Below, one piece after another: positions 25,109 through 54,175 of a stretch of 64,000 nt of DNA (within the stretch, counting starts at the first letter, position 1; every line of letters begins with the position of its first letter). Made by a program: the position numbers and the translations under genes. The DNA lies in assembly GCF_017815135.1 (NCBI RefSeq), contig NZ_JAGJCF010000017.1, positions 62,001-126,000 of the forward strand, given 5' to 3'. This DNA comes from Jiella mangrovi. GTDB taxonomy: Bacteria; Pseudomonadota; Alphaproteobacteria; Rhizobiales; Rhizobiaceae. Under the pieces are notes generated by a model. The model made no database searches and had not been told where the DNA came from. It saw nothing but the letters and a program-made list of their open reading frames with translations.

Positions 25109-25184
25109 GGGCCTGTAGCTCAATGGTTAGAGCCGGCGGCTCATAACCGCTTGGTTGGGGGTTCGAGTCCCTCCGGGCCTACCA
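25109..25184 (+). tRNA. tRNA with anticodon CAT, best fit tRNA-Ile2 (lysidine-modified)
   Basis: The 76-base cloverleaf closes fully: acceptor arm 25109-25115 with 25174-25180, D arm GCTC/GAGC, anticodon stem GGCGG/CCGCT with loop CTCATAA, T arm GGGGG/CCCTC with TTCGAGT, discriminator A and encoded CCA. The anticodon CAT is shared by initiator Met, elongator Met and Ile2. The AGCTCAATGGTTAGAGC and CTTGGTT segments match tRNA-Ile2 of other bacteria better than elongator Met. TilS would convert C34 to lysidine. An integrase begins 85 bases downstream, so the 3' end is a likely attachment site. Confidence 0.93.
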
Positions 25185-25269
25185 CTTTTCGTGCAAAGCA
25201 CTGAAAACGCTAAACGTTGTCGCCTTTTCGGACTGGACACAGGCCGAACTGCATAACATTGTGCATAAC

Positions 25270-27018
25270 ATGGACGACGAATTGGTGTCTCTGCCTGCCT
25301 ATGTAACCCAGCGAAACGGGGTCTATCAGTATGTCCGACGGGTCCCCGAGGACCTTGTCGGTCTGTTTGCCGGAACACGGATACAGCGATCACTACGGAC
25401 CCGCCTTCCCGGCGAGGCCCGGCATCGGGCCGCTGCCGTCGATCTACAAATTGAACAGGAGTTCGATGCGGCACGTCGGCGGGCCGGCCTGGAGGCAGCA
25501 CTTCTGCCGACCGTAGATTGGACCTGGTCCGAGTGGCAGAAGGTGATCGACTATCTGAAGGCGCGGTGGCTTCGCGATGACCTGAAAGAGCGTCTCGGCA
25601 ATGCGACGGGTGAGCATTTCTCGCAGGAGGCACGAGGACGGCCGCTTTGGCTTGATGACAGGAGGCTTCGCAGCGCGATTGATCGTCACCGGAAGCTTAA
25701 GGGGATGACCGTTACGCAATATGATGCCGAAGGAGCGCCTTCACTGCGACGTACGCTCTCCGTGATCAGAGTACCCCTCCCAATAGCAAACCCCTATCGC
25801 GAAGAGTTTATGGCCGCAGCTCTGCGAGTGGAGGTCGAAGCATTGGAATTAATCTTCAAAAGGGAGTCGGGCGAAACCATTGAATATCCGCACCCCGACA
25901 TGATTGAGGGTCCGTGGAAATGCAATCGAGTTCTGCCCGGAGCATCCGCAGCGTCGTGGGAGATGCCGACTGAAAAAATGCCAGCATCGGGCAAAGCGCT
26001 TTCCCTGTCCAATCCACCGAGAACGCTATCTGACTGCATCGCGGAGTGGAAAAGGGAGCGGGTACGGCTTAGGAAGAAGATTGATCCCCATCTCGTCAAT
26101 GATATGCAGAAAACGGTTGCGCGGTTTGCAAGCCACTCTGGCGTCGCTCAAATCCGTCAGATTGAGCGCCACCACATTGTCCGCTTTCGCGACAGTCTCT
26201 TCGACGAAGGGCGCTATAAGGTTGCGACCATCAACAAAAAAGTGGGCTTCGTCACAACGCTAATTTCGTTGGCGGCCACCAAGGGTTGGATCGAGAAGGA
26301 CATCGACGGCGGTATCTACATCGAGGTCCCTGAAGACGAGGACAAGCGCGAATCCTACACGACTGAGGAGATCAATACCCTCTTCGCGCATCCGGTCTTC
26401 ACAGCTGGCGCTCGCTCAAAGGCAGTGAAGGCAGGAGGTGAATTGCAGTTTTGGCTGCCGCTCATCTCATGCTGCCATGGGCTCATCTCATCGGAAATTT
26501 TGCAACTTGGTCCCGACACGATCGTCCAACACCCAGGCACCGAAGTCTGGTGTTTTCGCGTGACAACGGCGGGCAGCCGCAGCATTAAAGCCTACTCCCG
26601 CGAACGATTTGTGCCAATCAGAAATGAGCTGCTAGATCTTGGCCTTCTTGATCTAGTGACCTTCGCACGATCCAGCTCCCTGAGTACCCTCTGGGCTTCG
26701 ATCGGTCCCTCCAGGGACAATGTATCGATGGTATCGAACTATTTCTCCGCGCACTGGACATCCTTCGCTCGCAAGCAGTTGAAAGAACCTTCTGAAAGGA
26801 CGTCTCTTTACTCTTTTCGTCATGCCTTTAAGGACGAGATGGATCGCAGGGAAGTACCTCTAGAGGTGAAACGAGCGCTTCTTGGGCATGCTGACGGAGG
26901 AACAACCGGGCGATATGGTACGAAGAAGTCTCCCCGTCCGGTCGACATCGGACGCCTGAAAGCTGCAATCGACACATTGGAATGGGAGTTTATGGCAAAG
27001 CTGATGAAGCCGCGATAG
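25270..27018 (+). CDS. Tyrosine recombinase (integrase) beside tRNA, altered catalytic residues
   Basis: The protein has 582 residues from ATG 25270; a GTG at 25261 is also possible. The N-terminus RNGVYQYVRRVPEDLVGLF is the DUF6538-type arm domain of many rhizobial integrases, followed by a core-binding region (~255-340) and the catalytic domain. Box II reads YSFRH instead of HxxR, and LLGH plus the tyrosine in TTGRYGT (~residue 549) are present. In box I, where G-x-R-x-x-E-I is expected, the sequence is GLISSEILQL (~402-411), so the first catalytic Arg appears to be lost. The gene's position after a tRNA indicates an integrated element; it may no longer excise. Confidence 0.88.
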   Translation: MDDELVSLPAYVTQRNGVYQYVRRVPEDLVGLFAGTRIQRSLRTRLPGEARHRAAAVDLQIEQEFDAARRRAGLEAALLPTVDWTWSEWQKVIDYLKARWLRDDLKERLGNATGEHFSQEARGRPLWLDDRRLRSAIDRHRKLKGMTVTQYDAEGAPSLRRTLSVIRVPLPIANPYREEFMAAALRVEVEALELIFKRESGETIEYPHPDMIEGPWKCNRVLPGASAASWEMPTEKMPASGKALSLSNPPRTLSDCIAEWKRERVRLRKKIDPHLVNDMQKTVARFASHSGVAQIRQIERHHIVRFRDSLFDEGRYKVATINKKVGFVTTLISLAATKGWIEKDIDGGIYIEVPEDEDKRESYTTEEINTLFAHPVFTAGARSKAVKAGGELQFWLPLISCCHGLISSEILQLGPDTIVQHPGTEVWCFRVTTAGSRSIKAYSRERFVPIRNELLDLGLLDLVTFARSSSLSTLWASIGPSRDNVSMVSNYFSAHWTSFARKQLKEPSERTSLYSFRHAFKDEMDRREVPLEVKRALLGHADGGTTGRYGTKKSPRPVDIGRLKAAIDTLEWEFMAKLMKPR

Positions 27019-28021: not shown

Positions 28022-29647
28022 ATGAACGGGCCGCAGGCGATCTACGCCTTCAAGGTGGCGCTGGCGACGGTGCTCGCCCTCGCCTTTTCCTTCATGCTCG
28101 ACCTGCCGAACACCTACTGGGCGCTGATGACCATCCCGCTCGTCGCCCGGCCCGATGCCGGCTCCATGGTCTGGCGCAGTGCGGCGCGGCTCGCCGGGAC
28201 ACTGATGGGCGCGCTCGTCGGGTTAATGCTGATCGCCAACTTCGCCCAGACGGCGGGGCAAATGATTGCAGCGCTGGCACCGTGGATCTTCGCCACGAGC
28301 TATCTCGCCCGGCTGATGAGCGGCACGGATGCCTATGCCTACAGCGTCGCCGGCCTCACCGCACTCGTCATCGTGCTCGACACCGGCTCGAACGCTCCCG
28401 CGGCCTACGGCTATGCCCTCGCCCGGACGACCGAGACCGCAGTCGCCATCGTCGCGAGCTTCGTTGTCCTCCTTGTCGTTTTCCCGGTTTCCGTCGAGAA
28501 CCAGGTGAAGGGCCAGATCGCCAGCGCCAGAAGCCGGATGCTCAATCTTGCCAGGGCCGATCTTTCCGATGAAGCCACCGTCGCGATTGGTGAGCGGAAG
28601 GCCGTCTTCTCTGAGCTTCTCGCAATCCATACCACGTTAAGGGCCCAGGCCTTCGAGCGCTCGCGACGGAACTGGCGGCTGCCGCGGATGACAGAGGTCG
28701 CGGTGCTTCTCAACCGCACCCTCGTCGCGGCGGATGCCGCGGCCTTCGCGCTCGGCAAATTTTCTCCGGCCGAGCGCCAGGGCCGTGTCGAAGAGGAGCG
28801 GGCGACCCTTTGCCGGATGCTTGCCGACTATCCGCCACAGCGGACGAGCGTCGAAGAGACACGAGCCGATGTCGGGGCGATTGAGCGATTCATTGCCTCC
28901 CTCGATCCCTATACGCTGGTTCACCATCTGACCCGTACGCCGGGCCTGATCGACGAGTCCCTGCCTCGCCGTGTCGCGGCGCTCTACCGGCTCCGCCTCT
29001 TCGCCGAGAGCCTGCGCGATCTTCTTGTTGCCGAAGCGGCTCTTCTCGATCCGGACACGCCGACGCCGAGGGCCGAACCCATCAGCGCCCGCTACTACAA
29101 CCTTGAAGCCGCCTATCAGTTCGGCTCCTTCGGATCTTCCGACATCGGTGCCTGGACGACATCCGCCGACATCGGCTACACCCTCGACGCGCTGCCCTTC
29201 TCGCCCCGTCTCGGGCTGAAAGCCGACGCAATTTCGGGCGGCGGCGATCTCAACGATAACCGCCTCGGGACATTCAACCCGCTGTTTCCCAAGCTCCCCT
29301 ATTTCTCGGAAGCCAATCTCGCCGCCCCGGCCAATCTTCTCGATATCCAGCCCGGAATTTCGATTTCACCACGCGACGATCTGAAAATGGAGTTCAGCTG
29401 GAATCCGTTGTGGAAGCAGTCGAAGGAAGATGCGTTCTACGGCCCGCCACTCACGGCAGTCAAAGGCACAGCCGGCGGCAACAGCCGCTTCATCGGCCAG
29501 CAATTCATCGCATCCGGCGACTGGTCTGTCACCGAGCGGCTGTCGGTCTCCGGCACTTATGTGCGTTTTGAGCCCGGCGCTCGTTTGAAAGAAATCGATG
29601 CATCGTCGGGCGATTATTTCGCGCTCTCGACCCAGTGGCGTTTCTAG
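28022..29647 (+). CDS. Chimera of FUSC inner-membrane exporter half and alginate-export outer-membrane half
   Basis: The 541-codon frame joins two unrelated parts. Residues 1-~340 match the N-terminal half of FUSC/aromatic-acid exporter proteins: KVALATVLALAFSFMLDLPN, TYWALMTIPLV, six membrane helices to ~160 and a helical cytosolic region. From about residue 360 (YYNLEAAYQFGSFGSSDIG) the rest matches the C-terminal beta strands of alginate-export outer-membrane proteins, ending in STQWRF, a typical terminal strand. The two halves belong in different membranes, so a deletion fusing two genes is the simplest reading and a working protein is unlikely. I annotate the open frame, but a pseudogene is probable. 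Confidence 0.75.
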   Translation: MNGPQAIYAFKVALATVLALAFSFMLDLPNTYWALMTIPLVARPDAGSMVWRSAARLAGTLMGALVGLMLIANFAQTAGQMIAALAPWIFATSYLARLMSGTDAYAYSVAGLTALVIVLDTGSNAPAAYGYALARTTETAVAIVASFVVLLVVFPVSVENQVKGQIASARSRMLNLARADLSDEATVAIGERKAVFSELLAIHTTLRAQAFERSRRNWRLPRMTEVAVLLNRTLVAADAAAFALGKFSPAERQGRVEEERATLCRMLADYPPQRTSVEETRADVGAIERFIASLDPYTLVHHLTRTPGLIDESLPRRVAALYRLRLFAESLRDLLVAEAALLDPDTPTPRAEPISARYYNLEAAYQFGSFGSSDIGAWTTSADIGYTLDALPFSPRLGLKADAISGGGDLNDNRLGTFNPLFPKLPYFSEANLAAPANLLDIQPGISISPRDDLKMEFSWNPLWKQSKEDAFYGPPLTAVKGTAGGNSRFIGQQFIASGDWSVTERLSVSGTYVRFEPGARLKEIDASSGDYFALSTQWRF

Positions 29648-29730
29648 ATCGCCTCGACCGATCGGCAGCGTTGAGACTGTCGCTTGAATGGCCGCGACGT
29701 AACAGAACTCTGTCAACGCGAGGTCAGCGG

Positions 29731-29866
29731 CGGCATCGCGGCATCGCGGCATCGCGGCATCGCGGCATCGCGGCATCGCGGCATCGCGGCATCGCGGCAT
29801 CGCGGCATCGCGGCATCGCGGCATCGCGGCATCGCGGCATCGCGGCATCGCGGCATCGCGGCATCG
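29731..29866. repeat. Perfect tandem repeat, 17 copies of CGGCATCG
   Basis: The 136 bases are seventeen uninterrupted copies of an 8-base unit, starting 84 bases past the stop of the chimeric gene. No frame across it has a plausible start or product, and there are no spacers. Such an array is prone to slippage, so copy number probably varies between isolates or is miscounted by short reads. The interval 29,867-30,002 shows no other feature. Confidence 0.97.
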
Positions 29867-30031: not shown

Positions 30032-30310
30032 TTAGCGGCGTCGCCGCTTGGCTTTCAAAAACGTCGCGAAGTCCGAGTCGATTTCAACGATGCCCTCCCC
30101 TGTACGCGAGCGCAGGCATTCGTCGAGAAGGAGGACAATCAATTCGTTACGGCTCAGTCCTTCAGCTCTAGCCTCCGCGTCAACTCTGTCGAGGACCTTC
30201 TGTGAGACCCTGATCGTCGTTGCCCCGGGGGATTTGCCAGTCGACGCATCCTCGCCAGACGCGGTCTCTGTCTTGTGGTTTCCCAGCAGTTCCATACGCA
30301 GTTTTTTCAT
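30032..30310 (-). CDS. Ribbon-helix-helix protein, candidate ParA partner
   Basis: The 92-residue protein has a disordered N-terminal ~28 residues, then a likely ribbon-helix-helix domain: TTIRVSQKVLDRVDAEARAE, turn GLSRNELIVLLLDECL, and a basic KAKRRRR end. This is the layout of small centromere-binding partners of ParA (ParG/ParB-type, CopG-like). Its start overlaps the parA stop by four bases, so the pair is coupled. It could bind the partition site and repress the operon. A toxin-antitoxin role is less likely given the ParA partner. Confidence 0.75.
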   Translation of the reverse strand: MKKLRMELLGNHKTETASGEDASTGKSPGATTIRVSQKVLDRVDAEARAEGLSRNELIVLLLDECLRSRTGEGIVEIDSDFATFLKAKRRRR

Positions 30311-31011
30311 ATTGTTTCCGTAATTCGAATAATCGTCGCGATCTCTTCAAAGAGAGATTCAAACTCGTTCCTAGAGCGAAGCGTAAACCGCTGCGTGAAT
30401 GCAGTGCCTCCGACGTCCATGGCGTCGCGTAGCGGTACACGCCGCGTGATCACGGTTTTCATGAAAAATCGGCTCAGAACGGCATTGTCGAGATAGCCCC
30501 GGATGGCGCTGGATACCTCTGCTTGACTACCGTCAAGCCGATCCTCCGTGGCAGACGGATCGACCAGCGAAAGGACAAAACGGAGGGGGCGTCCGCGCGC
30601 AGTCGCTTTCTTAAATGTCCTCAACGCCGGCCCACGGTCTCGCGCGGATGTAGAAAGCGGAATCAGCACGAGATCCGCACAATCGATAGCGGCAATGTGC
30701 GCTGCGAGAACCGCGCCGCACGTGTCGATAACGACAACATCGACGGTCGTGAGGCGCTGCAAAGCCCCTAAAACATCAGCCGGGTCGACTTTGATTACGT
30801 CGATCCTCCCGCCTGCCTGTCGCCATTCGACACAGGAATGTTGATCGGTATCCGTGTCGAGAATCGCGACCGTGTATCCCGCTGCGGCGGCAGCGGCCGC
30901 TAAATTGATGACGAGACCGGACTTCCCGACGCCACCCTTCCCGCTCGCAATGGTGATCCGCGCTTGTTTGCGTTTACCGTGACCATCAACCTGTACATCT
31001 CTGACTGGCAT
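30307..31011 (-). CDS. ParA-family ATPase
   Basis: The protein has 234 residues from the ATG at 31011, where GAGG sits six bases upstream; another in-frame ATG at 31023 has no ribosome site. The deviant Walker A ASGKGGVGKSGLVINLA is complete, followed by LDTDTDQHSCVEW (A' Asp) and VVIDTCGAV (Walker B). It is the short ParA type, without an N-terminal HTH, typical of plasmid and integrative-element partition. It is coupled to the RHH gene. It suggests that this block is, or was, part of an element that can exist as a free circle. Confidence 0.9.
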   Translation of the reverse strand: MPVRDVQVDGHGKRKQARITIASGKGGVGKSGLVINLAAAAAAAGYTVAILDTDTDQHSCVEWRQAGGRIDVIKVDPADVLGALQRLTTVDVVVIDTCGAVLAAHIAAIDCADLVLIPLSTSARDRGPALRTFKKATARGRPLRFVLSLVDPSATEDRLDGSQAEVSSAIRGYLDNAVLSRFFMKTVITRRVPLRDAMDVGGTAFTQRFTLRSRNEFESLFEEIATIIRITETI

Positions 31012-31031
31012 GACTTGCCTCATCGAATCAG

Positions 31032-31044
31032 CATCGATCCGATG
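31032..31044. promoter_or_regulatory. Small inverted repeat upstream of parA, possible operator
   Basis: CATCG-ATC-CGATG is a perfect 5-base inverted repeat 9 bases before the first possible parA ATG. The whole interval 31,012-31,428 lies between divergent operons; it also has an AT-rich part at 31,215-31,290 and would be the expected place for promoters and a partition site. No longer repeat family is visible in it. Confidence 0.35.
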
Positions 31045-31428
31045 ATCTCGCTCTCACGACCGAAATCGGCATGCTAACTTGTTGAATAGCCCCCCAAGCG
31101 ACTGCGTGAGGGTTATGAGTTGCAATCTCGCAACAGCGCATTGATGCCAACTCAGGCCTAAATGCAGCGGTCGCGCAGCGGAACAAATCTCGCCCAACGC
31201 GTAATGTTTGAAAGGATAAAACTTTATGTAATTTCGATATATTAACCCCGAACGAATTGGGGCGAATGTCACTATTTACATTGTGGAATTTGGTCTTATC
31301 TTCCCCGCATCGGCATCATTTCGACTGCCGACCATAGATCAGGAAGCAGGCGACCGCATGGGGCGGCCGCCGGGGGAGCGCCAACTCCGCCCAGCGACCT
31401 GACCAACTGTCTCGATAGGAGAGAACAG

Positions 31429-32106
31429 ATGGCTGACGCTTTCATTGCGCGCACAGCGACGACGTGCAAGACCACTCCCGATTTTTCTGACGAAGATAGT
31501 CATCCCGATGTCGCTGGCCTTCAGGGCTGGGCCATGTCGGACGAGGACGGGACCTGCCTCGCACACTTCATCTCGCGCCCGATCGGCTCGCGGGAGATCT
31601 GTGGTATCCCATACATCACCGGCTTGGGGCCGATCATGCGGATCACCGAGATCCCCGATCTGCCGGACGAGTTCAAGACGCAGATGATTGAGGCGGCACA
31701 GTCCGCAAGGCGCCAGTCCTACCTGAACAGGGAGTACGGCGAAGTCGACGACGTCGGCCGCCTCAGTGTGGGCGAGCGCGCTTCTGTCGAAGCTTCCGAT
31801 CCCACTCTGATCTGCGACCACGACAGCATGAAGTCTGACACGCCGGCACCGAACAGGACGGGTCCCGTCTTTTCTGGACGGGAGGTGGCGACCGCTCGCC
31901 GAATCCTCGCGGCGATCGCACAGGTCGGCGAATATGTTGCCGATCTCGACCAGGGCCACGCGGCATGCGCCAACGCTCTGTTGCACACGCACGTCGTTAC
32001 CGAAGACCTTTGCTTGAAGCTCGTCGGCCTCGACCTCGTCACGGCGACGCGCACCGCAAACGGTTTCGTTCTTCGCTCTCCGACGGACAATCCGCAAGTC
32101 GGCTGA
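31429..32106 (+). CDS. Hypothetical protein, first gene of the accessory row
   Basis: The protein has 225 residues; ATG follows AGGAG by seven bases, a strong translation signal. No family is recognised. It has an acidic N-terminus, a central stretch with GIPYITGLGPIMRITEIPDL, and a helical C-terminal third with ATARRILAAIAQVGEYVADL followed by two strands (LVGLDLVTATRTANGFVLRS). It has no signal peptide and no membrane span, so it is probably cytoplasmic. It opens a plus-strand row with four other genes and is divergent from the ParA operon. Confidence 0.65.
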   Translation: MADAFIARTATTCKTTPDFSDEDSHPDVAGLQGWAMSDEDGTCLAHFISRPIGSREICGIPYITGLGPIMRITEIPDLPDEFKTQMIEAAQSARRQSYLNREYGEVDDVGRLSVGERASVEASDPTLICDHDSMKSDTPAPNRTGPVFSGREVATARRILAAIAQVGEYVADLDQGHAACANALLHTHVVTEDLCLKLVGLDLVTATRTANGFVLRSPTDNPQVG

Positions 32107-32232
32107 CGTCATTCGCGACACCGCGTGGCTTCAGAAGCGGCCAACTCGTCGCGGTAGTCTGACGCCCCCTGCTTTTCGGTCCGCTTGCCATTCGTGGCCG
32201 GCGGCGGTCCCCTTCCCTTCCGCTCATCATGA

Positions 32233-32250
32233 CCTGACGACCTCGTCAGG
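32233..32250. repeat. Perfect 18-base inverted repeat directly before a ribosome site
   Basis: CCTGACGA-CC-TCGTCAGG is fully palindromic and ends one base before the AGGAGGA ribosome site of the next gene. It could be an operator, a terminator for the upstream gene, or an mRNA stem that tunes translation. It has no T-run, which argues against a simple terminator. Confidence 0.7.
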
Positions 32251-32263
32251 CAGGAGGAATCCT

Positions 32264-33265
32264 ATGTCCAATCGTGATCGTAAACCTTTTGGCCACGCCA
32301 TCCCCCGGCTGTCCCGCCGGGTCCTTTCCGGACGTCCACCGCGCAATCCCGGAGCGGAATCGGCGGCATCGAAGGCGGAAGATCCCGTCTGTGGTACCAT
32401 CGATGCCATTGCCCGTTCGATTGTTGACGATGCTCTCGTCAGCGCGGAGGCGCTGGAAGCCGATCCGATGCTTGGCGAATATTCTACCATCGCCAGTCTA
32501 TTTCGGTCGATCGTGACGCGATCCGGGCAGGCGATCCCCGACGTGATTGCTGTCGCCCTTCGCGAGAATCCGCACTACCTCGTTCTCAGGGAACATCCGT
32601 TGCCCCTGACACGGACGGCCGACGAGATCGTTCGAAACAATAATCAGCGCACGCTCGACGTTGAAGTGCGAGCGGATACGCAGGTTCTCGGCTTCTTCGC
32701 AACGGATCTGGTCGTTATCGATCTAACGACGCGGCACGCGACTCTGATCGAATGCATCCGCGGCAGCGTTCCGCTTTCCGGTCCTCGAACAAAGTCCCTT
32801 GTCCGAACCGTTCGGACGGCAGCTATGAGCGCACGTAGCGCTCTCGAAGCCGAGGGCCATCGCGTCAACGGCGTCGGTTGCGCGGTTTTCGATCGCTATG
32901 GCCGAGCAGGGCACGACGAAGCGATGACAATTCGCGCCGGTGAGATCGACAGGTTTCTTGATGCTCCGATCATACGCCTTCTCGATCGTCTCGACCAAAG
33001 GATTCGGGACAGGCTGGCCACGATTATCGAGCCGGAGCCCGACGCGTCTGGCACTTCTAGCGAGGATGCCACGCGAGAAAGCCGCTTGATCGATCATGGC
33101 GATAATGTTGCTCATTTGTCGGATGATGAGGTCAAGCCGTCCAAGGACCGGGCCACGCCGCCCCCTCGCGTGATCGACCTGAGCCGCTCGATCGGCCCTG
33201 CCGAATTGCGGCGAATGATGAGCGGTATCGAACAGGCCGATCGTCATCCCGAGCCGTCTCACTGA
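32264..33265 (+). CDS. Hypothetical protein of the accessory row
   Basis: The 333-residue protein starts at ATG with a strong GGAGGA. I do not recognise it. The N-terminal ~35 residues are basic and probably disordered. The centre (~85-225) is a folded alpha/beta region with TLDVEVRADTQVLGFFATDL, VVIDLTTRHATLIECIRG and GVGCAVFDRYGR; the spacing of acidic residues recalls a PD-(D/E)XK nuclease core, but the expected Lys is not in place, so I do not call it one. The C-terminal ~80 residues are charged and low in hydrophobics. It lies 157 bases after the previous gene. Confidence 0.65.
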   Translation: MSNRDRKPFGHAIPRLSRRVLSGRPPRNPGAESAASKAEDPVCGTIDAIARSIVDDALVSAEALEADPMLGEYSTIASLFRSIVTRSGQAIPDVIAVALRENPHYLVLREHPLPLTRTADEIVRNNNQRTLDVEVRADTQVLGFFATDLVVIDLTTRHATLIECIRGSVPLSGPRTKSLVRTVRTAAMSARSALEAEGHRVNGVGCAVFDRYGRAGHDEAMTIRAGEIDRFLDAPIIRLLDRLDQRIRDRLATIIEPEPDASGTSSEDATRESRLIDHGDNVAHLSDDEVKPSKDRATPPPRVIDLSRSIGPAELRRMMSGIEQADRHPEPSH

Positions 33266-33364
33266 CCGCCTGACCCGTCTGATTTGTCTCAACTAGGCCT
33301 ACAGTCTGTTCCCGCATCAGCTAGGCATCCAGATTCGCGCTACTGATCGGGTACATTCGGCCGC

Positions 33365-33643
33365 ATGCCCGAAGGTCTCACACCAATGCCGCCCGCAACG
33401 ACCAGATCGACAGCCATCGTTGAGCAGTCGCTTGATGAGGCTGCGACGCCGCGCCTCCTCCACCTCGACTCCGCCTTTTACGTCGCGGCCGCGCTACGCC
33501 TCGGACGTCGCTCGATCCCGCGATGGGAACGCAACCTATTGATCGTCAGCCTCGATCGGCTCACGGCCTGCGGCGATGCAACTGCCCCGCTGGTTCGTGA
33601 GTGGCTCGTCCGCCAACAGCCTGACAAGCATAGGAGCAACTGA
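33365..33643 (+). CDS. Small hypothetical protein
   Basis: The protein has 92 residues (85 if the ATG at 33386 is used; neither start has a strong ribosome site). It is mainly helical, with FYVAAALRLGRRSIPRWERN and LLIVSLDRLTACGDATAPLV, and looks soluble. Its stop is one base from the next ATG's ribosome region, which supports a row of co-translated genes. No function can be assigned. Confidence 0.55.
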   Translation: MPEGLTPMPPATTRSTAIVEQSLDEAATPRLLHLDSAFYVAAALRLGRRSIPRWERNLLIVSLDRLTACGDATAPLVREWLVRQQPDKHRSN

Positions 33644-33644
33644 G

Positions 33645-33980
33645 ATGCCCAACTTTCCTTACAGCGCTCCCGGGATTCCGATCGGCAGTGAATGGATGGA
33701 CATCGAGGCGCTCGAGCGCCTCGCCGCCGACCTGCGTCGTTATGGAGCCGCAGGCGCACCGACCGAAGCCGAACTGGCGGCCGCCCCGGTTATTTGCACA
33801 CCACGCATCATTCCCGATCTCTCGGCTTTTCGGCTTGCCGGACAAGTCGTCGGTCATCCGCTCGTCGGTCCCGGACTCTCGATGACGTCCCGCATCTACG
33901 CCCTCGATCGCGCAGGCGGATGGGCGCGGAGCTATTCGCGGCTCTGGCGCATTGGTCGAGACCCGGGAGAGCTGCAATGA
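33645..33980 (+). CDS. Small protein, resembles the DUF6634 family
   Basis: The protein has 111 residues from ATG 33645 with AGGAG eight bases upstream. LERLAADLRRYGAAGAPTEAEL, the proline-rich centre, and the C-terminal GWARSYSRLWRIGRD recall DUF6634 proteins of alphaproteobacterial accessory DNA; that match is from memory and is tentative. It is soluble and of unknown function. It overlaps the start of the FtsH-like gene by four bases (ATGA), so the two are translationally coupled. Confidence 0.65.
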   Translation: MPNFPYSAPGIPIGSEWMDIEALERLAADLRRYGAAGAPTEAELAAAPVICTPRIIPDLSAFRLAGQVVGHPLVGPGLSMTSRIYALDRAGGWARSYSRLWRIGRDPGELQ

Positions 33981-35899
33981 AGAAGCTGAGTAAGCTGGGC
34001 AAGGTTAGCCCCGTCCCCTCCCCCAATGTCTTGCTTGTCGGTGATTTCGATGTGCAAGATCCGGACGACAAAACATTCGATGAGAACAGCGCTTTTGGCT
34101 TCATCGGCACGCAGATCCGCTCTTACGTAGCTGACCTCGATGCCAAGACCAGAATTGTTCGTCTGGTCGCCGGGACGAATGTTATCGATTTCGTCCGATC
34201 GGTGTTTCCTGAAGCGATCTCCCGCACGGAGGGCCGCTTGCAGGACTTCGGCGCTATAGCCCGTCCAGAAGATATCTTGGGATCGTCTGCAATTGGTCGC
34301 GCATTTGTCCTTTGCAGTCCGGAGGAATTCCCACCGGTCCTCGAGGCGACGATCGAGATCGGCTGGAGCAACGATGACCTCATCAGGATCGCAGGCCGCC
34401 GTTTTGGCCAAGCGCCAAAGCCCATGGCCCGCGAAATCTATGCAGGCTCGGCGGACCTCATCCTCAGAACCGCAAGGTCCATCGAACAGTTTAATGATCT
34501 CGCGTCTCAATATGTACGATTCTGGGATAATGCCGACAACAACGGAGAGGAAGACCAGCAGAAGTTATCGAGGCGCGGTACAACAACCGCGGATCGTGCG
34601 GCCTTTTCTGGCCAGCATGTCGAACTCCATCGGCCCACAGGGCCACTTGTCTCACAGCTCCATGGATATGGCGAAGCCGCCTGCTGGGCACTCGATCTTT
34701 CGGCTGACATCGAGGCTTACAGGACCGGGAAAATCCAGTGGTCGGAGGTGGATCGCGGTTGCGTTCTTTATGGCCCTCCCGGCACTGGCAAATCGCAATT
34801 TGCCACGGCGCTGGCGGCGGAGTGCGCTGTTCCGGTGATCTACACCTCGTATGCCGCGTGGTCATCTGTCGGCGAAGGTCACCTGAGCTACGTTACGAAA
34901 GCGATCCGCGCCACTTTTACTGTTGCCGCCGAGAATGCGCCCTGCATCATCTTCATCGACGAGTTGGATACGATCGTTGGCCGCGGAAAGGGGCACAGCC
35001 AACGTGATGACTGGTGGACGACCATTACCACGACGCTGCTCGAACAGACGGACGGCGCGCTACGTACGGAAGGAGTCGTCGTCGTGGGAGCGACAAATCA
35101 TATTGACTCGGTCGATACCGCAATGCTGCGGTCAGGGCGCCTCGACCGGTCTTTTCAGATTGGCCTGCCAGATGAGATGGCCCTTCTCGGCATCCTGCAA
35201 ATGCATTTTGCGGAAGAGGCCATCGCTGCCGACGAAATTCAACTCGTCGCCACGGCTCTTGCCGGAACTGTCAGTGGCGCCGACGTAGCTCGACTGGCCC
35301 GAGAATGTCGCAGGATTGCTCGCAAAAACGCTCGGCCGGTTGATGCCGCGCTTGTTATTTCGCAGGCACTCCCGGCCGAGACACGATCACCTGGAATAGT
35401 TCGACGTATTGCCATTCATGAGGCGGGTCACGCAGTGCTCGGGTGGCTCGCCGGAGATACGGTTCATGCCGCATCGATCGTTTCGCAATCCGGCGTCGGA
35501 GGTTACGTCCGCCGCGAGGCCGCAGAGTTCGACCAGACTGCCGCTGGTCTGGACAAGCTCGTCATTCCTCTTCTCGGCGGTCGCGCTGCGGAACTCGTTA
35601 TCCTTGGCGATAGCAGCACGGGCGCCGCATCCGATCTTGCCAGCGCTTCCCGAGTCATCGCGTCCGGGGAAAGCGGGGGATTGGGTTCGTGGCTTTCGTC
35701 TGGCGACGTCGACCGTCACGTCATCGAAAGGCGTCTGCGGCGACTCGAAGCAGAGGCCACGCTCCTTGTGACCAGACATAGGCGAGTGATCGAGGCGCTC
35801 GCAGATCGACTTATCGCAAAACGGGTGCTTTCGCGTGCGGCGATTGAAGACCTTCTCGCGAAGGTGCAACCCTCGAAGTCGCGCGATTTGGAACAGTGA
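33977..35899 (+). CDS. Soluble FtsH-like AAA+ zinc metalloprotease
   Basis: The protein has 640 residues from ATG 33977. Residues 1-~230 are an unrecognised N-terminal region; then an AAA+ module with GPPGTGKSQFATALA (Walker A), CIIFIDELDTIVG (Walker B), VVVGATNHIDSVD and RSGRLDRSF (second region of homology). The C-terminal protease has HEAGHAVLG (zinc site) and GAASDLASASR, which supplies the third ligand as in FtsH. Unlike housekeeping FtsH it has no membrane span, so it should act on cytosolic substrates. All catalytic motifs are intact. It is the last of five plus-strand genes and probably depends on the coupled small protein as an adaptor, which is inference. Confidence 0.9.
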   Translation: MKKLSKLGKVSPVPSPNVLLVGDFDVQDPDDKTFDENSAFGFIGTQIRSYVADLDAKTRIVRLVAGTNVIDFVRSVFPEAISRTEGRLQDFGAIARPEDILGSSAIGRAFVLCSPEEFPPVLEATIEIGWSNDDLIRIAGRRFGQAPKPMAREIYAGSADLILRTARSIEQFNDLASQYVRFWDNADNNGEEDQQKLSRRGTTTADRAAFSGQHVELHRPTGPLVSQLHGYGEAACWALDLSADIEAYRTGKIQWSEVDRGCVLYGPPGTGKSQFATALAAECAVPVIYTSYAAWSSVGEGHLSYVTKAIRATFTVAAENAPCIIFIDELDTIVGRGKGHSQRDDWWTTITTTLLEQTDGALRTEGVVVVGATNHIDSVDTAMLRSGRLDRSFQIGLPDEMALLGILQMHFAEEAIAADEIQLVATALAGTVSGADVARLARECRRIARKNARPVDAALVISQALPAETRSPGIVRRIAIHEAGHAVLGWLAGDTVHAASIVSQSGVGGYVRREAAEFDQTAAGLDKLVIPLLGGRAAELVILGDSSTGAASDLASASRVIASGESGGLGSWLSSGDVDRHVIERRLRRLEAEATLLVTRHRRVIEALADRLIAKRVLSRAAIEDLLAKVQPSKSRDLEQ

Positions 35900-35909
35900 G
35901 TCCTCGTTT

Positions 35910-37019
35910 TTAGGGAGAGAATGGGCTCCAATCTCGTATGTTTTGATCGGCCTCTTCGAGTCCCGATGCGTCATTCCGATGCCGAGGCCGAAAGTGAACC
36001 AACTCTCCCTCGCAACGCAGAGATCGCGTCTCCCGAACCAGACGACCGTCTGACAATCTCGCCGTCCGCAAGGGTTGCCGAACCAAGTCGAGCAGAGCAG
36101 CATGGGGAACCGCGACCGCCATGCTCGAACTCAATCCCGTTCGGCTATGCGCATAATGCCACTGCGCCGTCCGATCTGACGCATGACCGGCGAGTGCCGC
36201 TACCTCTACCGACGACATGGTCTGCTTCGCGGTCGCTAGTCCAACGTGCCTTGCAGTGTAAAGTGCTATCCGGGGAATTCCGAGCAGTCTGCACGCGCGG
36301 GCGATACGCGAAGCCAGCCTTGACCAGAGCCTGGACCAACTCCCGGCATGCCCCAGTGCGTCATGCAGACCGACAATTAGCCGGTCGACGCTGTCTAGAA
36401 AGTAGGGGCACTGATTGAGGATCGGCCCTAGATCGACGTCTCGTGTCGAGTCAATGCCGCGCCCGTTTGTAAATTTGGCACATTCAACTGAGAGTGAGCT
36501 GCCATATCGAGTTGCGGTTTCCCATTCGACGGGACGCAGTGCGATCCGGACATTGCATTTAAGATAGAGTCCCGCGATGCGGTCCAGAACCGTGCCACTT
36601 TCCAAGAAGTCGATGACTGCCTCCAGTTCTGTGAGGAGGACGCTCTGTCGCTTTCGCGCTGATGTCCGGGGCTTCGCCCATGCACGCCTCGCTTTTATGG
36701 CTTTAGGCGGAGCATCGAGTTTCTCAAACGCCGCCGCCATTCCCGAAATCGAAAGACAATAAGTGTCGACGGCACGCTCGACGGCGACCCGGAGCGCTGC
36801 TTGATACTGTCGTATCGTACTCTTCGACCAGCGGTCATCCTGGCCGCAAAACCACGAAATGGCGTCGCCAAGTCGAAACTCGGAGAGGTCAGGCGCCACG
36901 TCCCTTCTAGCCTGCCATGTCTCCTTGAACGCTTGCAGACGGAGTTGTTCCGCCCGCTTCAAATACGCTGTCTCCGTCTTTGCCGTTCGGGTCGGCGGTG
37001 GAATGTTCTCTCTGATCAT
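35910..37019 (-). CDS. Tyrosine recombinase
   Basis: The protein has 369 residues from the ATG at 37019, with GAGGAG seven bases upstream; 30 further in-frame codons upstream are unlikely. Catalytic residues are box I Arg in NVRIALRPVEW, box II YTARH (Tyr for His is common in this group), and GHASDRTAQWHYAHSR with the final His and the nucleophile Tyr. It is convergent with the FtsH-like gene, 10 bases away. It probably moved or resolved the ParA/FtsH block. Confidence 0.85.
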   Translation of the reverse strand: MIRENIPPPTRTAKTETAYLKRAEQLRLQAFKETWQARRDVAPDLSEFRLGDAISWFCGQDDRWSKSTIRQYQAALRVAVERAVDTYCLSISGMAAAFEKLDAPPKAIKARRAWAKPRTSARKRQSVLLTELEAVIDFLESGTVLDRIAGLYLKCNVRIALRPVEWETATRYGSSLSVECAKFTNGRGIDSTRDVDLGPILNQCPYFLDSVDRLIVGLHDALGHAGSWSRLWSRLASRIARACRLLGIPRIALYTARHVGLATAKQTMSSVEVAALAGHASDRTAQWHYAHSRTGLSSSMAVAVPHAALLDLVRQPLRTARLSDGRLVRETRSLRCEGELVHFRPRHRNDASGLEEADQNIRDWSPFSP

Positions 37020-53208: not shown

Positions 53209-53542
53209 CGTGCCAGTGAGGAGCACTCCAAATACTCTATTCCTTTGTTCTATTTTTGTTCTACACCCGCGTTCGTACCGGCTCTCGCAAGCAAGCCTGC
53301 ATAAGCCGATGCAATCTCCGTAATTCGGTAGCGGCCATGACGCCGTCTGGTTGCGCCCTCAAGCAGCAACGGCAGCTTTCGGAAGATCGCTGGTAATCTC
53401 GAACGACCGCACCGGCGCGGTTTCCGAATGGCAGCTCTCCGCGAATCTCTTCCGGAAGCCGACGGTCAGCTTTCGGCCCTTCGATCGTTGGGCAAAACTC
53501 TCGATCTTTTCTTTCGGCCATTCCGGCCGATGGAGAAGGACG
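53209..53542. other. Intergenic region between divergent Abi and recombinase genes
   Basis: About 330 bases. The part next to the Abi start is AT-rich with a probable promoter (53,230-53,260). The remainder reads open in the frame of the recombinase, but the known family members start near 53,543. No other feature is seen. Confidence 0.45.
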
Positions 53543-54175
53543 ATGGGATATTCGGAGTATGATCCGGCGGGTAAAGCTCGTCGAGCATGGAAGGCAGGCC
53601 GAACAGTTGGCGCGAAACGACCCCTGAAGCCGCAGCAGGTGTGGGGGATCCGCTTTTGGCTCGATCGCGAAGGACGGATTCGAGACCGAGCGCTGTTCGA
53701 TCTCGCGATCGACAGCAAACTTCGAGGCTGCGATGTCGTGAAGATAAAGATCGGCGATCTGACGTCGGGTGGACGGATCCGAACGCGAGCGATCGTCGTG
53801 CAGCAGAAGACAAAACGGCCGGTCCAGTTCGAACTGCTCGAACCTGCCCGGTCGAGTCTTCTGATTTGGCTGGAACTTCGAGGCGGGACGATCGACGATT
53901 ACGCCTTTCCGAGCCGGATCGACAGAATGGACCATCTCAGCACCCGGCAGTACGCCCGTTTGGTCGACGAGTGGGTAACCGCGATCGGCCTTCGGCAGGA
54001 GGACTATGGTACGCATTCGCTTCGTCGGACGAAAGCGTCGATCATCTACAAAGCGACCGGTAATCTGCGAGCGGTTCAGATCCTTCTCGGTCATACGAAG
54101 ATCGAGAGCACCGTTCGATATCTCGGCGTCGAAGTCGAAGACGCGTTGACGCTCGCTGAAGGGACTGAGGTGTAA
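53543..54175 (+). CDS. Minimal tyrosine recombinase
   Basis: The protein has 210 residues from ATG 53543 (GGAG upstream). It belongs to a group of short recombinases very common in rhizobial accessory DNA: KPQQVWGIRFWLDREGR, ALFDLAIDSKLRGCDVVKI (box I Arg), YGTHSLRRTKAS (HxxR), and ILLGHTKIESTVRYLGVE (His and nucleophile Tyr). It has no N-terminal arm or full core-binding domain, so it may need a host partner or a simple target. All catalytic residues are present. A hairpin follows 22 bases after the stop. Confidence 0.92.
   Translation: MGYSEYDPAGKARRAWKAGRTVGAKRPLKPQQVWGIRFWLDREGRIRDRALFDLAIDSKLRGCDVVKIKIGDLTSGGRIRTRAIVVQQKTKRPVQFELLEPARSSLLIWLELRGGTIDDYAFPSRIDRMDHLSTRQYARLVDEWVTAIGLRQEDYGTHSLRRTKASIIYKATGNLRAVQILLGHTKIESTVRYLGVEVEDALTLAEGTEV

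Follow-up and report, generated by a model that had tools for sequence, protein, structure and literature searches.

A DUF6634-paired, predicted soluble AAA+ M41 protease carried by mobile elements in Jiella mangrovi and related bacteria

The window analysed here, a stretch of 64,000 nucleotides from Jiella mangrovi (NCBI RefSeq assembly GCF_017815135.1, contig NZ_JAGJCF010000017.1, positions 62,001 to 126,000 of the forward strand), encodes an AAA+ zinc protease of the M41 type that is predicted to be soluble and, directly upstream of it, a small protein of the DUF6634 family. Genome comparison indicates that DUF6634 is a conserved partner of this protease and that the protease family is carried by plasmids, recombinase islands and Tn7-like elements. 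We found no description of an M41 AAA+ protease module in such a mobile-element setting; comparative support is good for the core of the module and weak for its function. With a probability of roughly 0.4, we read it as an accessory protease module of mobile elements, with DUF6634 as the dedicated partner, that may serve defence or the conflict between elements. The genes concerned are arranged as follows.

30032..30310, minus strand: ribbon-helix-helix (RHH) protein of 92 amino acids (Pfam RHH_1, 2.2e-6), overlapping the ParA gene by four bases
30307..31023, minus strand: ParA-type ATPase of 238 amino acids (CbiA, 5.8e-12; NCBIfam ParA_partition 90.6 bits, below the cut-off of 180)
31429..32106, plus strand: p225, of no recognised family, opening the divergent row (coding-like G+C by codon position; AGGAG upstream)
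32264..33265, plus strand: p333, PD-(D/E)xK-like, with the catalytic-type lysine replaced by isoleucine (alignment of 16 sequences)
33365..33643, plus strand: p92, a small open reading frame (ORF) of no recognised family, lacking a clear ribosome-binding site
33645..33980, plus strand: p111, the DUF6634 protein (PF20339, 8.1e-11, above cut-off)
33977..35899, plus strand: predicted soluble AAA+ M41 zinc protease of 640 amino acids (Pfam AAA and Peptidase_M41)
35910..37019, minus strand: tyrosine recombinase of plasmid or island type (R162, K182, R257, H279 and Y289 in 14 of 14 sequences)

The row opened by p225 diverges from the ParA-RHH pair across 405 bp, the p111 stop codon and the protease start codon overlap in an ATGA (33977-33980), and the recombinase converges on the row 10 bp past the protease end. 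The coupling of a DUF6634-like protein to an AAA+ metalloprotease and of ParA to RHH had been described in an earlier, sequence-only reading of this DNA and are present as described there.

As in FtsH/HflB, a single chain combines AAA+ and M41 domains (99 and 56.2 bits in Pfam) and carries HExxH and Walker motifs, and the first solved chains that cover both halves of the protease are those of FtsH (2ce7, query residues 257-561). In an alignment of 12 sequences D328, E329, R385, R388, H481, E482, H485 and W295 are invariant and K272 and D553 nearly so, residues which, judged by FtsH, we take to be Walker B (D328/E329), the arginine fingers (R385/R388), the HExxH motif (H481/E482/H485), the pore-loop aromatic residue (W295), Walker A (K272) and the third zinc ligand (D553). 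On the other hand, the protein scores 172.7 bits on the FtsH equivalog model TIGR01241, below its cut-off of 600, is found in mobile settings paired with DUF6634 and is without a transmembrane N-terminus. The highest 19-residue hydropathy N-terminal to the AAA domain is 1.14, versus 2.46 in the membrane-type FtsH of the same genome (L003), and with no pre-AAA stretch hydrophobic enough, the protease is predicted to be devoid of a membrane span. The absence of a span next to intact catalytic motifs, noted from the sequence alone before, is thereby corroborated. An AlphaFold2 model based on the 12 sequences has a mean predicted local distance difference test (pLDDT) score of 68 and is mostly confident over about residues 214-631. 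An initial contig scan with the protease as the sole query gave no relative. Among phage records 31 were matched, with identities of 30-34% for the 20 matches listed. A second copy, 45% identical over residues 220-629, is located on contig C36 of the same genome (L026, 442-15587). Split forms of the protease also occur: in L226 (5852-9137) a gene for the AAA part and a gene for the lid plus M41 flank DUF6634, L187 (9295-12047, checked with Pfam) separates the AAA large domain from AAA lid and M41, and L087 and L089 look alike.

Pfam itself lists DUF6634 as a domain of unknown function, and the family is named nowhere in the open-licence literature searched; p111 passes its gathering cut-off (42.4 bits versus 27). 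Across 397 genomes of the order, DUF6634 was matched 53 times in 37 genomes; the matches are not all independent, 51 are above the family cut-off, and 14 control genomes yielded none. A soluble-class protease, meaning one that scores higher on the profile of this protease family than on an FtsH-like profile (25 proteins from loci L097-L166, mostly of other groups), is located within 1.5 kb of DUF6634 at 30 of the 53 places, the window included, and on the same strand in all 30; at two further places it is 3.5-4.7 kb off. Counted from the protease, DUF6634 is nearby at 6 of 21 protease-found loci (20 fetched from a protease search and the window; positive are L030, L033, L041, L044, L045 and the window), and three of 24 protease places (G315, G249, G370), seen with 1.5-kb flanks, had no DUF6634 match there. 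Short contigs such as L250 (3.5 kb), L170 (3.3 kb), L181 (5.4 kb) and L171 (8.3 kb) depress these counts. As controls, 20 stretches of the same genome set were chosen at round offsets (18 from protease-bearing genomes, two from G375 and G392). Neither DUF6634 nor a soluble-class protease was present in them; TnsB was matched once (L196), as was, weakly, a metallophosphoesterase (L198). The counts for 68 loci used below refer to a set assembled partly via DUF6634, p333 and the recombinase; free of such selection are the 53-place and 21-place counts only.

The pairwise distances of DUF6634 and protease correlate (Mantel test, r 0.685 for 33 pairs and 0.44 after dereplication to 27 pairs, in both cases reached by 0 of 5000 permutations), so that the two appear to have been inherited together, to which shared host descent could contribute. 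DUF6634 is encoded upstream of the protease in 11 of the 30 cases, the window among them, and downstream in 19. This shuffling of gene order, together with the variety of carriers, argues for a module with a function of its own. Ordinary accessory cargo in general quality control, with DUF6634 as a mere hitch-hiker, would agree with the intact catalytic core and likewise with the varied carriers, but is rendered very improbable by the same-strand adjacency in 30 of 30 cases, by the co-divergence with DUF6634 and by the membrane-type FtsH that the genome already possesses. Its adjacency to a single enzyme and the co-divergence with it make the function of DUF6634 directly testable. The five predicted structures of p111 contain helices and beta strands (pLDDT 74 for the best model, 35 for the worst); the model has no fold match in PDB (best E 2.1), where the DUF6634 profile likewise found nothing convincing. 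Five overlapping stop-to-stop DUF6634-like ORFs followed by a metallophosphoesterase gene occur in L183 (7517-9204), where the protease is absent; two of them are matched in the genome census, both above cut-off.

If the module acts in defence or element conflict, the protease would form a hexameric, ATP-driven ring to which DUF6634, with or without p333, would deliver substrates or gate their access; the ring would unfold and degrade a protein belonging to an incoming phage or a rival element, and the module would be cargo that protects the element as well as its host. The neighbourhood bears on this proposal, as defence-family neighbours favour defence or element conflict and nearby transposition genes a ClpX-like role. 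At 1e-10, 182 PADLOC families were matched for the sampled neighbour proteins (138 of 240, from 34 protease loci) and 18 for the sampled control proteins (140 of 265), with TnsC and TniQ proteins kept in the comparison; the first number is overstated by the redundancy of the families, 21 of which are matched by a single L026 helicase. Strong matches near the protease, among the 25 of 182 families listed, include QatA, QatB, ZorA, SngC, SngA, HerA and MkoB. CHAT, an S8 peptidase adjoining an ATPase and a KwaB-like protein surround the protease in Rhizobium acidisoli, and in Methylobacterium, CBASS genes adjoin a p333 relative without protease. In L026, a helicase with a strong match to Shango SngC and a TerB protein are encoded upstream of the protease paralogue, with TnsB, TnsC and TniQ genes downstream.

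The closest defence counterpart is IetAS, an anti-phage system that combines the AAA ATPase IetA with the subtilisin-like IetS. The ATPase part of the window protease resembles IetA (69 bits in PADLOC), and both are ATPase-plus-protease arrangements, but the proteolytic part is here a zinc-dependent M41 domain within the ATPase chain; no S8 peptidase was found among the nine window proteins scanned, and the corresponding NCBIfam model gives 74.8 bits, short of its cut-off of 510. The proteolytic defence effectors known to us are of serine and caspase-like types, unlike the ATP-driven zinc protease effector that this module would represent if the defence proposal holds. Among the matches listed in the open-licence literature searched, we found no soluble FtsH or M41 protease module in an antiphage, defence-island or Tn7-like context.

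Several observations weigh against the defence or conflict reading. The PADLOC matches of the protease are confined to its ATPase domains (TRIP13 more weakly than IetA), and its N-terminal 213 residues are unresolved in the AlphaFold2 model. No soluble-class protease is present in the fetched stretch at 21 of the 53 DUF6634 places, which moreover are the partly dependent ones mentioned above. The redundancy of the PADLOC families belongs here too; the strongest control matches come from a single RtcR-like regulator (2.5e-113), and defence genes accumulate as cargo of mobile elements anyway.

With respect to the carriers, the protease matches 28 plasmid records at E 1e-40, and the proteases of the four plasmids fetched by protease match are all soluble-class. 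The presence of plasmids, recombinases and Tn7-like elements beside family members is in line with the mobile or integrative setting suggested from the sequence alone. A TnsB-model match is located within 4 kb of the protease at 15 of 68 loci, sharing its strand at 12 of them, and at 7 of the 21 protease-found loci, compared with 1 of 20 controls. Past the protease, Pfam Mu-transpos_C, TniB and TniQ are recognised in R. palustris JSC-3b (L154) and on contig C36 of the J. mangrovi genome (L026). The R. palustris locus has three repeats of TnsB-site type beyond TniQ (1526189-1526314). Three more, inverted and less perfect, occupy the other end (1504816-1504874), with the gene termed TnsA_up, DUF6634, the protease and TnsB-TnsC-TniQ inside the intervening span of about 21.5 kb. 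From this arrangement we take the R. palustris protease to lie inside a Tn7-like element, for which no target-site duplication is claimed. The element ends are made less certain by the 2-3 mismatches to the pattern in two of the three left repeats, by single one-mismatch repeat matches at two other places of the genome and by the identical quick repeat test in L026 and L040, which gave no comparable repeats.

A gap of about 0.6-0.8 kb ahead of the TnsA-side gene in L026, L028, L030, L040 and L154 had prompted the idea that the protease is a target gene of Tn7-like elements. For R. palustris this was rejected, as the repeats are located past TniQ and 21 kb opposite, with none in the gap. The R. 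palustris element begins directly after the 3' end of a gene for vitamin B12-dependent ribonucleotide reductase (L266, 3628-4875); the same gene end is found near the protease in L092 (11356-13338) and near DUF6634 in L224 (5841-6974) and is a possible attachment site.

These carriers bring a different role into consideration. ClpX, encoded by a host housekeeping gene, acts with the DDE transposase in Mu transposition. ClpX is also reported to raise integration by a Tn7-like CRISPR-associated transposase (CAST), at the price of toxicity to the cells (PMC12719977). By analogy to this AAA+ unfoldase working with DDE transposases, the protease might dismantle or degrade recombination complexes, be it the TnsB strand-transfer complex or the tyrosine recombinase, with DNA guidance by a PD-(D/E)xK or TnsA-like protein as part of the same proposal. 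The protease differs from ClpX in being element-borne and in having its own protease domain. In favour are the frequency of nearby TnsB matches, the four-base overlap of TnsA_up with the own-genome paralogue, the enclosure of TnsA_up, DUF6634, protease and TnsB-TnsC-TniQ by the R. palustris repeats, the recurrence of the recombinase with the protease in 4 of 10 places and the CAST precedent (PMC12719977). However, at 53 of the 68 loci TnsB is not matched within 4 kb of the protease, which is why we place defence or conflict ahead, and the window copy has no TnsA or TnsB match nearby (positions 22001-45000, searched for these two only). We consider such a remodelling role the main alternative, though a somewhat unlikely one. 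An M41 protease as a Tn7-like component is absent from the matches listed in the open-licence literature searched, which nowhere treats TniQ and FtsH together. If the proposal is true for transposition complexes, a ClpX of their own would be part of mobile elements, and the enzymes might be useful with CASTs, where ClpX was reported to raise integration but to be toxic (PMC12719977).

The genes upstream of DUF6634 may connect the protease with DNA. In an alignment of 16 p333 sequences, D148 and R166 are invariant and the lysine aligned with residue 165 of the window protein is nearly so; the family combines an invariant aspartate with a downstream K-R-G/S motif (Y-E-V-K-R-G in some members), and an aspartate followed by E-x-K is presumably the PD-(D/E)xK nuclease pattern. 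The window protein reads ECIRG where the family has YEVKRG, so that the catalytic-type lysine is lost in this copy. E-x-K is kept by most of the short relatives without protease, and the protease-linked ones have S-V-K-R-G or D-x-K-R-S. Against PDB, the p333 profile finds nothing of weight: SdaI endonuclease comes up at E 0.11, and the lowest E, 0.023, belongs to a ribosomal protein. p333 is found beside the protease at eight of the 68 loci, seven of them outside the window, always on the same strand; the order p333-DUF6634-protease is found again in L041, L185 and L229, and p333 precedes the split protease in L187, L087 and L089. Six other class-level p333 matches have no soluble-class protease nearby, some of them on short contigs, and in L167 an ORF adjoining the p333 relative matches the protease profile at 2.2e-5 only.

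TnsA_up genes occur at 16 of the 68 loci, always on the strand of the protease, and in L026 the overlap with the paralogue amounts to four bases. The TnsA_up protein may be TnsA-like, a label that rests on a weak model overlap of TnsA_up, the TnsA-side gene and the TnsA named by NCBI in L188; the Pfam TnsA model matched L188 and L030 below cut-off and none of the other proteins tested, and the profile gave nothing convincing against PDB. A relationship between p333 and TnsA_up was rejected by profile comparison (probability 0.5%), and any common slot is therefore positional only. A bolder proposal, which we hold to be unlikely, sees in the module a new class of DNA-triggered proteolytic weapon or transposition governor, in which a PD-(D/E)xK or TnsA-like DNA reader, often devoid of catalytic residues, would read an invading end or a transpososome and, via DUF6634, activate or direct the protease; plasmids, recombinase islands and Tn7-like transposons would then all use one and the same module. 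As further genes within 4 kb and on the strand of the protease, predicted 3'-5' exonucleases are encoded at 7 of 68 loci (L049, L176, L177, L230, L237, L247, L257) and metallophosphoesterases at 15 of 68.

The remaining genes of the row do not share this recurrence. p225 has no match in the family libraries, the fetched loci or plasmids, p92 none in the family libraries or the fetched loci, and both, as well as RHH, stand beside the protease in the window only among the 68 loci, as seen with single-sequence models of low sensitivity. The conserved unit surmised from the sequence alone consequently shrinks to DUF6634 (30 of 53 places) and, less regularly, p333 (8 of 68), without p225, and the whole gene combination was rejected as a conserved unit, since ParA recurs near the protease at few loci and RHH, p225 and p92, by these models, at none beyond the window.

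The overlapping ParA and RHH genes resemble a partition cassette, but ParA stays below the ParA_partition cut-off, and the 441 bp between ParA and p225, the sole stretch inspected, contain no centromere-like repeats or clear partition-site repeat array. ParA is found within 4 kb of the protease at three of the 68 loci, the window counted. In L178, protease, DUF6634 and ParA are consecutive with the recombinase 1 kb away, and the best NCBIfam model of ParA is ParA_partition as in the window, likewise below cut-off (94.1 bits).

The recombinase has no Pfam integrase match and a weak PHROG one (E 0.0013), yet R162, K182, R257, H279 and Y289, which we take as the catalytic set of tyrosine recombinases, are identical in all 14 aligned members, the window included, with a tyrosine where HxxR usually has histidine; its assignment as a convergent tyrosine recombinase is upheld. 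Matches were found in 10 of 397 genomes, its own included. Its proposed link to the protease holds for 4 of 10 places outside the window, where the protease is in the fetched stretch (L176, L178, L242, L247); in L244, DUF6634, a metallophosphoesterase and p333 are located about 10 kb off. In Cupriavidus gilardii, a relative is flanked by ParA-like, ParB and StbB genes to one side and by genes for Dot/Icm-type conjugation to the other, a setting that fits a plasmid-type recombinase.

The sequence-only reading had proposed a maintenance or defence module of an integrative element in which the protease, with the small coupled protein as adaptor, would degrade a host, phage or partition target. 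Taken as an integrated maintenance unit, ParA-RHH, row, protease and recombinase would cooperate, with the protease hitting a partition target. All these genes lie within 7 kb in the window, and protease, DUF6634, ParA and recombinase are close together in L178; with ParA at three and RHH, by its one-sequence model, at one of the 68 loci, ParA and RHH drop out as unit members, and together with the lack of a clear repeat array between ParA and p225 this makes the cooperation the most improbable of the explanations considered. Instead, we tentatively regard the ParA-RHH pair and the recombinase as genes for the maintenance of an integrated, plasmid-like island that adjoin the proteolytic core without belonging to it. 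An independent occurrence of protease, ParA and small genes in unrelated contexts, named in that reading as refuting the unit, is partly borne out, as ParA, p333, DUF6634 and the recombinase are also found without protease; the core pairing holds.

Alternatively, the protease could clear a repressor of its own element and thereby govern excision, transfer or replication control, with DUF6634 delivering the substrate. The largely mobile settings of the examined loci, the small coupled partner and the ParA/RHH and recombinase genes adjoining the window copy would suit such a regulator; no recurring repressor gene was noticed beside the pair, though no dedicated search was made, and the idea appears distinctly improbable to us.

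Beyond the row, two further features precede the region by 5 kb.

25109..25184, plus strand: tRNA-Met(CAT), a possible integration site of the surrounding region (ARAGORN)
25261..27018, plus strand: DUF6538-type tyrosine integrase adjoining tRNA-Met (DUF6538, 1.3e-16; Phage_integrase, 1.1e-4, 22.5 bits, below the cut-off of 27.1)

Over about 30-43 kb the G+C content (0.54-0.62) is modestly reduced compared with 1-25 kb (0.59-0.70). For a putative island beside tRNA-Met no ends were established, as the genome contains no second exact copy of the 25-nt 3' end of the tRNA. The tRNA is the sole Rfam match of the window, and the predicted sites of promoter-like type (5, with 2.4 on average after shuffling) and terminator-like type (6, with 6.4) are of no evidence value. 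At 29730-29866, 166 bp from the RHH stop codon, a perfect tandem array comprises 17.1 copies of the 8-bp unit GCGGCATC with 100% matches. A single ORF at 28022-29647 combines FUSC (fusaric acid resistance) and Alginate_exp parts, an unusual-looking combination, and a second integrase-like ORF, called by eye from its C-terminal part, is located at 53351-54175, downstream of the stretch of lower G+C.

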